Source: Pirellulales bacterium (GTDB lineage Bacteria > Planctomycetota > Planctomycetia > Pirellulales > PALSA-1355). Taken from it: 64,000 nt of DNA. Numbering within the stretch: position 1 is the first letter of the stretch; the number at the start of each line of letters is the position of its first letter. The position numbers and the translations under genes are program-made. Of this stretch, positions 19,091 through 40,802 are shown one piece after another. Location of the stretch: positions 62,001 through 126,000 of the forward strand of contig JALHMI010000013.1 in NCBI GenBank assembly GCA_022844125.1. The letters run 5' to 3'. The notes below the pieces were generated by a model. That model ran no database searches. It saw nothing but the letters and a program-made list of their open reading frames with translations, and was not told the DNA's origin.

Positions 19091-20581
19091 CTAGCCCAGC
19101 ACGTCTTCGATCACGCGGCCGTGGACGAACGTGAGTCGCTGCTCAGCGCCGTTGTGAAAGAAGCTGAGCCGCTGGTGATCGAGCCCCAGCAGGTGCAGGA
19201 TCGTGGCGTGCAGTTCATAGACGCTGCTGGGGTTCGCCACGGCCTGGTAGCCGAAGTCGTCGGTCGCGCCATAACTGTGAGCGCGCTTGACGCCTGCTCC
19301 GGCCAGCCAGACGGTGAAACCCTTGGGATTGTGATCGCGTCCCTTGGAGCCTTCTTGAAAGGTTGGCATGCGGCCGAATTCCGTCGTCCAAACAACCAAC
19401 GTGTCTTCGAGCATGCCGCGGGCTTTCAGGTCCTTGAGCAACGCGGCTGCCGGCTGGTCGAGGATGGGGGCGTGAACGCTGTACTGATCGTGAAGGGCTT
19501 TGTGACCATCCCAGTTGCCGACGCCTTCGCCCATCGCGTAAGCGCCGTTGAAGAGCTGCACGAAGCGCACCCCGCGCTCGAGCAGCCGCCGGGCCAGCAG
19601 GCAGTTGCGGGCGAAGCCGGCCTTCACCGTGTTGGCGTCATCGGTGCCGTAGGCCGCGTGAGTGGCGGCTGTTTCGCGCGTAAGATCGGAGACTTCCGGA
19701 GCGCTGAGCTGTAGTTTGGCGGCCAGTTCGTAGCTGGCAATTCGAGCCGAGAGTTCCGTGTCGCCGGGGTTGCGCTCCAGGTGCTTGTCGTTGAGCAGTT
19801 TGAGAAAGTCGCGCGTGGCGGCCTGCGCCTGGGGGCTGACCGAGGCCGGCGTCGCCAGATTCGAGATCGGCTGCTGCGTGTTGAACGACGTGCCCTGAAA
19901 CACGGCCGGCAGAAAGCCGCTCGACCAATTGTTGGGGCCGACCTGCGGTATTCCGCGCGGATCGGGAATGGCGACGAAGGCGGGTAGGTTGTCGCACTCG
20001 CTCCCCAGGGCGTAGGTGACCCAAGCACCGGCGCTCGGATAGCCCTCGAGCGTGAAGCCGGTGCTCATGAAGTTTTCGCCGGGCCCGTGGGTGTTGGTCT
20101 TCGAGGTCATCGAGTGGATGAAGCACATCTCGTCGGCCAGTTCGGCCAGGTTCGGCAGCAGATCCGAGATGTACTTGCCCGACTCGCCGCGGGGTCGAAA
20201 CTCCCAGGGGCTTTTCTGCAGGTTGCCGTTCTTGCCCTGGAAGGTGACGAGTTCGCCGCCGGGCATCGGCTTGTCGTGATGTTTGATGAGCTGCGGCTTG
20301 TAGTCCCAGGTGTCGAGATGACTGCACGCGCCGCTGCAGAAGATCATCAGCACGCGTTTGGCCTTGGCCGGGAAGTGCGCCTGGCGGGCAGCCAGCGGCG
20401 CATCGGGGAGGATGCTCGGCCGGTGTGGTGCAGTATCGTTGGCGAGCAGACCTTCTTGCGAAAGCAGACTGGCGAGCGCGATGCCGCTGAGTCCGTGGGC
20501 GGCATGGGTCAGAAATCCACGGCGATCGAGCAGCCGCAAACCGCCAGGGGAAGGAACTGACTTCTGAAAGAGAGGCGTCAT
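19091..20581 (-). CDS. DUF1501 family protein with Tat signal
   Basis: About 496 residues. The ATG at 20581 gives a twin-arginine leader ([23 protein letters not shown]), so it is exported folded. The body has the DUF1501 pattern: [22 protein letters not shown] near residue 65, [18 protein letters not shown] near 160, and [10 protein letters not shown] with GRDHNPKGF near 400. These are sulfatase/alkaline-phosphatase-fold features. In planctomycetes DUF1501 genes usually sit beside PSD1 (DUF1549/DUF1553) genes, as here. An inserted 627-bp element now separates the two; its inverted repeat starts 31 bases upstream of this start codon. Confidence 0.92.
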
Positions 20582-20612
20582 ATCGTGACGGTCTTTAGTG
20601 AACTTGGAGAAG

Positions 20613-21239
20613 AGAACCACAGATGAACACAAATGAACACAGATAAGAGATGATTGCCGGCATTAGCCATAAGCTCGCTGCAATTTATGCCTTCCGGGTA
20701 AACTCAACGACAATACACGTTCAGCCCTAGCGCGGAGCGATCTCAATGCATGACGAAACCATGGCCAACGATGCAGCGCAGCGTTCCGCAGACGAAAAGG
20801 AGGGACCGTTTGCGGCCGAAACCAGAGCAATCATTAGTTGTGCCTTGAGGTACTAAATCATCTGGGCCATGGATTGCTCGAAAAAACTTACGAGAATGCG
20901 CTGGTTGTCGAGTGCGCTTTGCGCGGAATCCCGGTCGCTCAACAGCGGCCGCACGATGTCCTCAACAAACAGGTAAGTATTGGCCTTTACGTTCCCGATC
21001 TAATTGTGTTTGAACGAGTGATTGTCGAAACCAAGGTGATCGACCGGATTTCCGACCACGAGCTTGGACAGGTGCTCAACTACTTGAAGATCACTGGCTA
21101 TCCGGTCGGTCTCATCCTGAACTTTAGACGAGCACGACTTGAGTGGAAGCGGGTTGTATCCCCGGCCCTGCAAGGCAAGCCCTCATCTCACTTTCCCACC
21201 TAGTCTTATCTGTGTTCATTTGTGTTCATCTGTGGTTCT
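20613..21239 (+). mobile_element. GxxExxY gene flanked by perfect 36-bp inverted repeats
   Basis: The left end (20613-20648) and right end (21204-21239) are exact reverse complements over 36 bases, each built of two overlapping ATGAACACA-type units. Between them lies one gene, whose stop codon abuts the right repeat. The whole 627-bp unit sits in the gap between PSD1 and DUF1501, genes that normally adjoin. I see no target-site duplication and no transposase. The terminal motif recurs at 35012-35150 and 40639-40756 without any gene. Mobility is inferred from structure and placement. Confidence 0.7.
20746..21203 (+). pseudogene. GxxExxY / PD-(D/E)XK nuclease-like protein, frameshifted
   Basis: The likely start is the ATG at 20746 with GGAG eight bases upstream. 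That frame gives 36 residues ending ETRAIISCALRY and stops at 20854-20856; the remainder continues in the -1 frame from about 20838 as LEVLNHLGHGLLEKTYENAL. One missing base near TTGAGG (20845-20850) explains the break. The intact part shows the family signature GLLEKTY, then PDLIVFERVIVETKV (the D...ExK core) and YLKITGYPVGLILNF. GxxExxY proteins are small, often multicopy and of unknown function, placed in the PD-(D/E)XK superfamily. No slippery heptamer is seen, so decay or a base-call error is more likely than programmed frameshifting. Confidence 0.8.
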
Positions 21240-21264
21240 TTCTTCGCAGTCCTTGACGCAAGAA

Positions 21265-24093
21265 TCAATTCACGTACAGGAATTCGTTCGCGTTGAATAG
21301 CGCGCGGCAGAAGATGGCGAGGCCTTGGGTGGAGATTAACGACTCGGCCGCGGCCAGTTCGTCGGCGTCGGGTTCGCGGCCGAGGGCGAGCCAGAAGGCG
21401 CGCCGAATCTGGTCAGCGGGTGAGGACGCCTCGCGCTGGAGTCGATCGGCCAGGAATTGCGATTGCTCCACCATGAACGCCGCGTTCAACAGGTTCAGGG
21501 CCTGCAGCGCCGTCGTCGAGACATTGCGGCGGCCGACGACTTGCGTGGCGTCGGGACAGTCGAATTCGCCAAACACACCGTCCTGGCGCGAGCGTGTCTT
21601 CTCCTGATAAATCATCCGCCGCCATTGGGCCGGGCCGAACTGGTCGAGCGGTTCGTACACCCGGACGTAGTTGTCGTTTGGCTTGAAGGGGCTATAGCCG
21701 GGCCCTCCCATCGCGAGATTCAAGACGCCGCTCGTGGCCAGGAGGCAATCGTGAATGGCTTCGGCCTCGAGCCTGCGTGGCGGGAAGCGCCACAAGAGCC
21801 GGCAGTTCGCGTCGACCGCCGCGGCCGACTCGTCGAACCGGCTCGACTGCCGATACGTCGAAGATAGCAGGATCATCCGGTGAAGCTGCTTCGGCCGCCA
21901 GCCGCCGGCCATGAACTGGCTGGCCAGGTAATCGAGCAGCTCCGGGTGCGACGGCGTTCCACCGTTGAAGCCGAAATCGCTGGGCGTCTTCACCAGTCCC
22001 TGGCCGAAATGGTAGTGCCAGATGCGATTGACCATTACCCGGGCAGTGAGTGGGTTTGCGGGGTCGCCGATCCAGCGGGCGAGCGCCATGCGACGTGCGG
22101 CTTCCGGCGCCGCAGCCGGCATCACGAGCGAGGAACCGACGGCAGCAATCGCGCCGGGCGGCACTTCGTCGCGCTGCTGCATTGGATCGCCGCGATGATA
22201 GACGCGTGTGGCCTCCGGCTGCTTGAACGTGCCGAGATAGGCCATCGTGGGAGCGAGCAAGGCCAGCTCGGTGCGCAGTCGAGAAGCTTCGCCCGTGAGC
22301 TGCTCGTATTGTTCGGCGACCTCGGCGGGCAGTCCGGCGGCGATCGACTGCTGGTCCTCCGACTGGCCAAACGGCGTGCGATCATCTCCGGTGGCGACCG
22401 TTTGCCAGGCGTGGGGATCATCGCCGCCGGGGCTGATCTCGACGCGATACCTGGTGGGCACGCGGTCTTTGAATTTACCTTCGCGATCGCGAGCCCAGGC
22501 AATGCGGTCGACCAGCATGGGCTCTGCGAGTTCGATCTGCACCCAGCCGCTGCCGGCTTCGGCCGAGATCCAACTGCGGCCGTTGCCATAGCGGGCATCG
22601 TTCACGTGTTCGATGCGATGGATGCTGTTCGTGCCGTTGGCGTACACGCTCGAAGCGGTGGCTGTAGCACCCACGCTTGCCAGAGCAACATTCTGGGCAC
22701 TTTCGCCGGCGGTGTAGATTTCGAGTTCGTCAAGGCAGGGTTCGATGCCACTCGATTCCAGGACCGTAAATCGCACCAACTTTGCCGCTACCGGCTCGAA
22801 GCGGTCGACGTTGTAGAGCGGACTGACGGGTGGACGACGCGGACCGTCGGCGGCCGGATTTAGCTGGGCAAGGGGCTGACTGCGCGCGGCCAGCGCGTTT
22901 GCTTCGCGTTCGAGGCGTTCGATCTTGGCGCGCAACTCTTTCGCCGTCCGCTGGCGCTCCGACGATTCGGGCGCACGCAGTTCGCGAGCCTCGTGCTGAA
23001 CGCCTGCGAACATCGCCTGGAGCGAGTAATAATCTCGCTGGCTGATGGCGTCGAACTTGTGATCATGGCACTTTGCGCAGCCGGCGGTCAGTCCGAGAAA
23101 CGCGGTGCTGGTCGTGGAGACCATGTCGTCCAGATCGTTGGCGCGCTGGTTGAGCGTGAGCTCGATGTCGGGACTCTTCACCTGGTCGTGAGTCCCGCCC
23201 ACCAGGTAGCCTGTGGCGGCGTCGACGCCCGTCTGATCGCCAGCGAGCTGATGCAGCACGAACTCAGGATAGGGGAGATCGCGGTTAAAGGCGTCGATGA
23301 CCCAATCGCGATAAGGCCAGGCGTTCGCCCGCGGCTTGTTCGTTTCGTAGCCATCGCTTTCGCCGAAGCGGACGACGTCCAGCCAGTGCCGGGCCCAGCG
23401 TTCGCCGTAGCGTGGTGACGCGAGCAGCCGATCGACGAGTCTCTCGTAGGCGTCGGAGGAGTTATCGGCGACAAACGTGGCGATCTCTTCCGGTGTCGGC
23501 GGCAATCCGTGCACGTCGAGAGTCGCCCGGCGAATGAACGTCGCGCGGTCGGACTCGGGTGCGGGCTTGAGACCTGCTTCTTCCAGTCGGGCGAGGATGA
23601 AAGCATCGAGCGGGGTGCGCACCCAGCCCGCGGTTTGCACGGCCGGAATGGGCTGCGCGACGGGCGGCTTCAGTGACCACCAGTCGCGGCCGCCGCGGAG
23701 TTCGGTCGTGTAATCGAAAGCACTCAGCGTGCGACCAGAGGGCCAAGCCTCGCCACTGGCGATCCAGGCTTCGAGTCGTTTAAGCTCCTCGGCCGGAACA
23801 GGGGCGCCTTTTCCCTCGGGGGGCATGTCGCCGGCGCGAAGCCGATCGACGAGGTAGCTGGCGTCGAGATCGCCCGGCGAGATGGCCGGGGCGCCGCTCT
23901 CACCGCCGGCAGCAAGCTTGTCCCAGGAAGAAAGATCGAGACCACCGGCGAGTTCGCTGGCGTTGTGGCAGCCGAGGCAGTGCTTGACCAAAAGGGGCGC
24001 GACGTCACGATCAAAGCTCGGCGCATGCTCTTCGGCACGCACCCGCGCAATCGTCGCGAGCAAAACGCACAGTGTGACGCCGATCCGCTGCAC
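21265..24093 (-). CDS. PSD1 (DUF1549/DUF1553) planctomycete cytochrome protein
   Basis: 942 residues with a signal peptide (MQRIGVTLCVLLATIARVRAEE). An N-terminal planctomycete cytochrome C domain carries the haem motif CLGCH near residue 40. DUF1549 follows (~150-350: TPLDAFILARLEEAGLKP, YGERWARHWLDVVRFGES, then CAKCHDHKFD, a second CxxCH). DUF1553 occupies ~650-900 (NPLTARVMVNRIWHYHFGQGLVKTPSDFGFNG). Between them, at ~430-560, is a discoidin-like beta-sandwich (SGIEPCLDELEIYTAGE to GSGWVQIELAEP), suggesting carbohydrate binding. It lies upstream of DUF1501 on the same strand; the family is abundant in planctomycetes and biochemically unknown. Confidence 0.93.
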   Translation of the reverse strand: MQRIGVTLCVLLATIARVRAEEHAPSFDRDVAPLLVKHCLGCHNASELAGGLDLSSWDKLAAGGESGAPAISPGDLDASYLVDRLRAGDMPPEGKGAPVPAEELKRLEAWIASGEAWPSGRTLSAFDYTTELRGGRDWWSLKPPVAQPIPAVQTAGWVRTPLDAFILARLEEAGLKPAPESDRATFIRRATLDVHGLPPTPEEIATFVADNSSDAYERLVDRLLASPRYGERWARHWLDVVRFGESDGYETNKPRANAWPYRDWVIDAFNRDLPYPEFVLHQLAGDQTGVDAATGYLVGGTHDQVKSPDIELTLNQRANDLDDMVSTTSTAFLGLTAGCAKCHDHKFDAISQRDYYSLQAMFAGVQHEARELRAPESSERQRTAKELRAKIERLEREANALAARSQPLAQLNPAADGPRRPPVSPLYNVDRFEPVAAKLVRFTVLESSGIEPCLDELEIYTAGESAQNVALASVGATATASSVYANGTNSIHRIEHVNDARYGNGRSWISAEAGSGWVQIELAEPMLVDRIAWARDREGKFKDRVPTRYRVEISPGGDDPHAWQTVATGDDRTPFGQSEDQQSIAAGLPAEVAEQYEQLTGEASRLRTELALLAPTMAYLGTFKQPEATRVYHRGDPMQQRDEVPPGAIAAVGSSLVMPAAAPEAARRMALARWIGDPANPLTARVMVNRIWHYHFGQGLVKTPSDFGFNGGTPSHPELLDYLASQFMAGGWRPKQLHRMILLSSTYRQSSRFDESAAAVDANCRLLWRFPPRRLEAEAIHDCLLATSGVLNLAMGGPGYSPFKPNDNYVRVYEPLDQFGPAQWRRMIYQEKTRSRQDGVFGEFDCPDATQVVGRRNVSTTALQALNLLNAAFMVEQSQFLADRLQREASSPADQIRRAFWLALGREPDADELAAAESLISTQGLAIFCRALFNANEFLYVN

Positions 24094-34944: not shown

Positions 34945-35200
34945 TTGACCGCAGAGGACACGGAGGTACGCAGAGGAAATAACGTTAGAGGAAGATGAAG
35001 GGAAGAAGAGTGAACCACAGATGAACACAGATAAACACTAATAGGATAGGAGAAGAACAGTGGGACGGAAATAGGGTTAACACCTCCTTCTTCCGCACTG
35101 ATGCTCTTTTCGTTTCTTCATCTGTGTGCATTTGTGTCCATCTGTGGTTCGGACTTCTCTGCCTTCCCCTCTGCGAACCTCCGCGTCCTCTGCGGTTCGC
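34945..35200. repeat. Two-tier nested inverted-repeat element, copy 1
   Basis: The outer pair is CCGCAGAGGACACGGAGG-type at 34945-34976 and its inverted copy at 35168-35200. The inner pair is ACCACAGATGAACAC-type at 35012-35040 and inverted at 35119-35150. The ~80-base centre has no gene. The element begins one base after the stop of the propeller gene and ends 31 bases before the radical SAM start. The inner motif is the same as the ends of the GxxExxY element. Confidence 0.8.
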
Positions 35201-40591: not shown

Positions 40592-40802
40592 TTAACCGCA
40601 GAGGACGCAGAGGGAAGGCCGAGAAGAGAAAGCAAACGAGAACCACAGATGAACACGTATAAACACAGATAAGAGAGGAAGAAGGAGTGAGGGGAGGGAT
40701 GGCAGCAGGTCATCTCTTCCAGCACTTCTTCAAATTGCTTTCCCGTCTGTGGTTCTGTTCCCCTGTTTTCCCTCTGCGAACCTCCGCGTCCTCTGCGGTT
40801 AG
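40592..40802. repeat. Two-tier nested inverted-repeat element, copy 2
   Basis: The outer pair is AACCGCAGAGGACGCAGAGG at about 40592-40613 and its inverted copy at 40771-40802. The inner pair is AGAACCACAGATGAACAC at 40639-40676 and a shorter inverted end at 40745-40756. The centre (~70 bases) has no gene. The inner motif matches the GxxExxY element ends; the outer motif matches 34945-35200. Confidence 0.78.

Follow-up and report, generated by a model that had tools for sequence, protein, structure and literature searches.

Iteron-type inverted ends around GxxExxY nuclease-family genes suggest a one-gene mobile element with MITE-like derivatives

The element and its neighbours

The window, that is, the whole stretch of 64,000 nucleotides that was analysed (G000:C13:62001-126000, G000 being the source genome), contains a short element inserted between a PSD1-type and a DUF1501 gene, both on the minus strand. 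These two genes normally form an adjacent pair. The locus is organised as follows:

19091-20632, minus strand: DUF1501 gene, the left neighbour; its real start is likely ATG 20581
20613-20648, plus strand: left terminal arm, a GAACC-type outer end and then ~10-bp tandem units CACAGATGAA / CACAAATGAA / CACAGAT
20746-20850, plus strand: N-terminal part of the GxxExxY gene, in a different frame, ATG 20746, ...AAETRAIISCA
20838-21203, plus strand: GxxExxY (PDDEXK_3) frame with the motifs GxxExxY, D, ExK and QxxxY; the N-terminal part is absent from this frame
21204-21239, minus strand: right terminal arm, the exact reverse complement of the left arm
21265-24093, minus strand: PSCyt1/PSCyt2/PSD1 gene, the right neighbour

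The arms match at 36 of 36 positions (20613-20648 / 21204-21239), bearing out the exact inverted ends described in the initial annotation, and share 89% identity over 47 nt when extended (20602-20648 / 21204-21250). The stop codon of the gene, TAG at 21201-21203, immediately adjoins the right arm, which starts at 21204, again as first described. The frame passes the curated cut-offs of both TIGR04256 (E 7e-32, profile 10-116, 110.3 bits against a cut-off of 35) and PDDEXK_3 PF13366 (E 4e-30, 104.9 bits against 22) and carries the GxxE, D, ExK and QxxxY residues; judged by its sequence, the gene is a member of the GxxExxY / PDDEXK_3 family. Further family residues lie upstream, from ATG 20746 (...FAAETRAIISCA), in a different frame, which indicates that a frameshift of 1 nt near 20836 disrupts this copy. 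As its reading frames stand, the window copy is a dead, degenerate family member. The single PD-(D/E)XK-like gene that had been proposed between the ends is therefore right as to family but not as an intact gene. Profile searches recognised PF13366 as the sole gene between the arms and found no known transposase there, in agreement with the original reading.

Inverted arms are the rule at GxxExxY loci

GxxExxY loci were gathered from G000 and its relatives (35), as named loci across GTDB (80), from 2 viral contigs and from 70 more planctomycete sites. Inverted repeats were scored from HMM-fixed domain coordinates (score of at least 13 within 260 bp), and windows displaced by 900-1500 bp at these loci served as controls. 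The initial annotation expected similar repeats around GxxExxY genes elsewhere, and inverted arms were indeed detected at 128 of 168 scorable loci (76%) compared with 10 of 750 shifted windows (1.3%). Unit pairs facing each other on both sides were present at 109 of the 168 loci and at none of 315 controls. The remaining 24% of loci had no inverted repeat detected at the score threshold used; loci L059, L113 and L136 scored without one, yet units are visible there by eye.

The median element is 490 bp long, and its arms are separated from the domain by ~34 and 25 bp. Arm autocorrelation is maximal at lags 8-10, and the arms are built of 3-4 tandem 8-11-bp units of the CRCNRAG or CRCAGATGAA type with an outer end of ACC, AACC or TTCACC (for example ACCACAGAGACACAGAGACACAGAG, ACCGCAAAGACGCAAAGG, AACCACGAAGGACACGAAG, AACCGCCAAGACGCCAAG, CAGGATGGACAGGATG and CCGCAGATGAACGCAGATG). 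ACGACG-type arms border the genes at L013 and L167. Arm-bearing named loci, many of them from metagenome assemblies, occur in 13 phyla: Pseudomonadota, Planctomycetota, Chloroflexota, Verrucomicrobiota, Acidobacteriota, Bacteroidota, Ignavibacteriota, Cyanobacteriota, Nitrospinota, Armatimonadota, Electryoneota, Thermodesulfobacteriota and the archaeal Methanobacteriota. The GxxExxY search matched 8 plasmid records and none of the phage records searched.

Dispersed repeats and gene-less copies

The window arms belong to a dispersed, genome-wide repeat family made up mostly of MITE-like pairs. Across the 6.4-Mb genome the arm core GAACACAAATGAACACAGAT has 38 matches at up to 3 mismatches and the two-unit core CACAGATGAACACAGAT has 81 at up to 2, while the reversed-pattern control gave 0 for each. 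Among the sites read, the majority of these matches are gene-less inverted pairs of ~80-280 bp with the form GAACCACAGATGAACACAGATAAACACA...TGTGTTCATCTGTGGTTC. The idea that the 36-bp end is a unit of this gene alone thus had to be abandoned, as the ends are iteron arrays common to a dispersed MITE family. Further examples within the window, given without strand, are:

34948-35196: second-flavour arms around the element at 35012-35150, ACCGCAGAGGACACGGAGGTACGCAGAGG at 34948-34976 and inverted at 35168-35196
35012-35150: gene-less MITE-like element with first-flavour arms, GAACCACAGATGAACACAG ... CTGTGGTTC
40597-40798: another partial composite, with arms of the second flavour at each edge and first-flavour units at 40644-40670

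Complete first-flavour MITEs were nested in second-flavour arms (CGCAGAGGTACGCAGAGG) on both sides in 6 of 9 cases and on one side in 2 of 9 more. Instances of such nesting are the two window sites (34948-35196 and 40597-40798) together with L037, L041, L042 and L045. The 6 of 9 nested MITEs had suggested palindrome centres as general targets, but this was rejected as G221 MITEs showed no excess of outer inverted symmetry; at gene-bearing elements the excess was only slight. Another G000 copy of the gene, L003, has second-flavour flanks that are identical at 33 of 33 positions. In or near elements L042 (G000:C1:47800-48750) and L051 (G000:C4:17850-18700) there is also a repeat of a third flavour, TGGTGTCGTCGTGTCGTCGTGG, together with its inverse. 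Two contigs start with the same repeat matches at the same positions (G000:C3:1-108, L055, and G000:C13:1-108, L054), which suggests that assembly breaks in G000 fall on these repeats. An Rfam search of 14 loci returned no match.

The gene and the repeats co-occur

Co-occurrence was examined in 199 Planctomycetota genomes, 96 with and 103 without GxxExxY. The degenerate arm pattern ACCRCRRAGNNCRCRRAG has 1299 sites in the gene-bearing genomes (control 29) against 188 in those without the gene (control 22). At least 10 sites were present in 35 of 96 genomes with GxxExxY compared with 3 of 103 without it (odds ratio 19, p 7e-10, with genomes counted as independent despite their kinship), so that 35 of 38 repeat-rich genomes have the gene. 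G077, G089 and G129 hold 12-40 repeat sites with no GxxExxY detected; their assemblies are 76-92% complete, and they may be either incomplete or survivors of a lost enzyme.

One flavour was tested for matching between genes and repeats. At least 10 CRCAGATGRACRCAGAT sites were found in 4 of 4 genomes with GxxExxY arms of the same flavour (G000, G060, G085 and G221) and in 2 of 28 other genomes, whose GxxExxY copies are only partly typed. G099, G114, G148, G207 and G214, which are rich in GAG-type repeats, have zero CRCAGATGRACRCAGAT sites. About 15 MITEs in G221 carry the same TAGCCGCAGATGAACGCAGATGAACGCAGAT ends as the GxxExxY element of that genome.

Arm sequence follows protein sequence

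In a set of 118 loci with protein identity under 80%, the more identical two proteins are, the more alike are their arms (partial Mantel r 0.51 with GC controlled; permutation sd 0.05, maximum 0.15), and the correlation within Planctomycetota alone is 0.44. Mapped on the protein tree, arm class changes 27 times, against 52.6 with shuffled labels (minimum 47). Unlike proteins in one genome have arms less similar (8.0) than like proteins from different sets (12.9; p 1e-4). This shows that the gene and its arms travel together, and argues against genes having dropped into pre-existing genome-wide repeats. Co-variation falls short of proof for recognition, because gene and arms are physically linked and co-inheritance alone could produce it. 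The original proposal of a protein acting on the repeats nevertheless has indirect support from the tracking of protein by arm flavour, from near-invariant catalytic residues and from the concentration of the one tested flavour in matching genomes.

Sites are occupied in some relatives and vacant in others

The flanks of elements of family f43 were used to search 16 relatives for orthologous sites. At the L191 site, the element is present in G124 and a 15-nt spacer in G060 and G238. At L183, G158 and G236 carry the element, G237 has a 133-bp insert whose flavour differs, and the site is empty in G229 and G142, while that of L184 is occupied in G158 and G237 and empty in G060, G238, G236 and G229. 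These intergenic sites are thus occupied in some species and vacant in others, and the elements are variably present between relatives instead of being fixed at orthologous positions. Together with the arms elsewhere, this strongly supports the initial annotation of gene and repeats as a mobile unit. No base-precise empty site was found among the orthologous sites compared because spacers diverge so fast, and 77 elements showed no excess of flanking direct repeats that would mark target-site duplication. Elements L192 and L194 share one position in sister species, a groEL-like/dnaJ-like junction, and orthologous GxxExxY copies have dN/dS of 0.04-0.11, indicative of purifying selection.

The orthologous f43 spacers (L230-L238, L241-L243, L298, L300 and L301) are hot spots in which unrelated palindromic repeats replace each other, between flanking genes that are about 90-97% identical. 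At the sites of L192 and L193, the spacers of sister species contain further small inserts or stretches the size of an ORF, 220-545 bp long (L319, L323, L325 and L327).

The protein resembles Cas4/RecB-type nucleases

Across 176 domains, the catalytic E (of GxxExxY), D, E and K are conserved at 99-100%, and Q and Y at 97%; the motif set is recognisably that of RecB/Cas4-type PD-(D/E)XK nucleases. An AlphaFold model of L115, a Rhodospirillaceae copy (pLDDT 93.8, pTM 0.85), had as best structural matches Cas4 SSO0001, lambda exonuclease and the Cas4-like ACE1, all of them weak (best E 0.006). Profile matches of GxxExxY to Cas4 are likewise weak but frequent, and a PDB sequence search gave a chance-level match only. 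The 176 domains contain no set of four conserved cysteines, the best cysteine column reaching 75%. Taken together, the model and the motifs point to a Cas4/RecB-like PD-(D/E)XK nuclease without the Cas4 cysteines, for which DNA cutting is the predicted activity.

Comparison with known systems

The nearest described systems are REP elements with RAYT and TIRtrons with TIRYT (PMC3733652). They too comprise multicopy short inverted or palindromic intergenic repeats with an enzyme gene between the same repeats, and are found in planctomycetes (PMC3733652). However, the RAYT/TIRYT enzyme is an HUH tyrosine transposase rather than a PD-(D/E)XK nuclease, and its repeats carry GTAG/CGTC tags or TIRs rather than tandem 8-11-bp iterons. 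No HUH Y1 transposase (PF01797) was found between the arms, where the gene is PF13366, and no GTAG or CGTC tag at the element ends, which consist of ACC/AACC/TTCACC and tandem units. Y1_Tnp genes are also present in 20 of 22 genomes searched. The 26 Y1 loci scored have mostly ordinary palindromic flanks, and REP-like palindromes of their own, such as TAGCCGGGGGCGCAAGCCCCCGG, border the RAYT/Y1 genes of L337-L366; the iteron repeat was the best inverted repeat at 0 of 26, and unit-like pairs lay near both sides at 2 of 26. Further, G072 and G214 lack a Y1 gene yet contain GxxExxY elements or 100 repeat sites. Mobilisation of GxxExxY elements by RAYT was rejected on account of the different repeats at RAYT genes and these two genomes. 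By analogy, the GxxExxY element would work most like REP/RAYT with a different enzyme class, without being a member.

Like the MITEs of ordinary ISs, the gene-less copies have the same terminal inverted repeats as an element that carries a gene. They differ in that the arms enclose no recombinase gene of the DDE, HUH or serine type, the ends are iteron arrays and target-site duplication is absent, although some ISs also lack such duplication. With the Cas4, solo-Cas4 and MGE-Cas4 nucleases (PMC5704561) the protein shares the fold, the GxxE, D, ExK and QxxxY motif set and weak profile matches. Cas4 is defined by four conserved cysteines that hold an Fe-S cluster (PMC5704561), whereas GxxExxY proteins have ~125 aa, no four-cysteine Fe-S module and no cas neighbourhood that we could see. 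Rpn proteins (YhgA-like, PF04754) are PD-(D/E)XK recombination-promoting nucleases similarly tied to DNA mobility (PMC5350276). They form a separate Pfam family, and none of 61 GxxExxY members matched PF04754 at E<=1. To our knowledge, Rpn has no terminal repeats or MITE families. If the nuclease is the active enzyme, the system is new with respect to REP/RAYT, IS/MITE, Cas4 and Rpn, from each of which it departs in at least one defining feature. Searches of open-access full texts turned up no account of the function of GxxExxY, of these repeats or of their association.

A probable one-gene mobile element and its alternatives

These observations are probably best explained by a widespread family of one-gene mobile elements in which the nuclease recognises its own iteron ends and from which MITEs derive. 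We give about even chances to the bolder claim of a new class of DNA mobility, in which a stand-alone ~125-aa PD-(D/E)XK nuclease with iteron inverted ends moves itself and flavour-matched MITEs with neither transposase nor target duplication, and which, having spread to numerous bacterial phyla and some archaea, is the source of many of the ACCACAGAGGACACAGAG-like repeats dispersed in their genomes. In the mechanism we infer, which extends to binding, DNA cutting, insertion chemistry and movement, GxxExxY multimers would bind the iteron units in both arms, pair the element ends and introduce a nick or cut at the outer ACC boundary, after which the replication or repair machinery of the host would copy or re-insert the unit, mostly between genes and with no target duplication; gene-less MITEs with the same arms would spread alongside. 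The absence of both target duplication and a joining enzyme favours such repair- or replication-dependent movement over a classical strand-transfer transposase.

The main alternative, which we consider unlikely, is that iteron-ended elements owe their movement to some unrelated transposase acting in trans, be it HUH, DDE or another type, with GxxExxY as a passenger or a defence or stability gene. We know of no strand-joining activity of a PD-(D/E)XK nuclease alone, MITEs are classically mobilised in trans, and many of these genomes have Y1 transposases. However, among the sites read no gene other than GxxExxY was seen between arms of this kind, the arms track its sequence across phyla, and the Y1 evidence above (other repeats around RAYT genes, two genomes without Y1) speaks against this alternative.

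Still less probable is a homing-like drive, whereby GxxExxY cuts MITEs of the same flavour and double-strand-break repair copies the gene unit in, the MITEs being deletion products and landing sites. PD-(D/E)XK homing nucleases are known, and the missing target duplication and the one tested flavour common to genes and dispersed repeats would both fit. What stands in place of the element at the L183, L182 and L251 sites is, however, either an unrelated spacer or a MITE whose flavour differs, never a MITE of matching flavour, and the spread of the MITEs themselves would be left unexplained. That the arms serve an immobile, stably inherited small gene as sites for binding or regulation is very improbable: the shared position of L192/L194 and other elements in sister species and the purifying selection agree with it, but dozens of gene-less copies per genome, vacancy of the same site in other relatives, many copies of differing flavours within one genome and the presence of an arm on either side of the gene do not.

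If the one-gene element is real, a function would be assigned to a widespread protein family that so far lacks an assigned one, a single hypothesis would account for inverted intergenic repeats of a commonly occurring class, and a type of mobile element with a PD-(D/E)XK nuclease as its only enzyme would be added. Since the pairs of protein and repeat represent naturally occurring variants in specificity, recognition is open to direct testing in vitro using proteins of ~125 aa and DNA of 30 bp.

Finally, the arms bear on gene annotation. At many loci (L058-L064 and L135) the left arm is in frame with the gene and its translation gives NHRDTETQR-like N-terminal peptides; annotated GxxExxY starts may therefore lie inside the repeat, and such N-termini should be read as a warning that the left arm has often been taken as coding.
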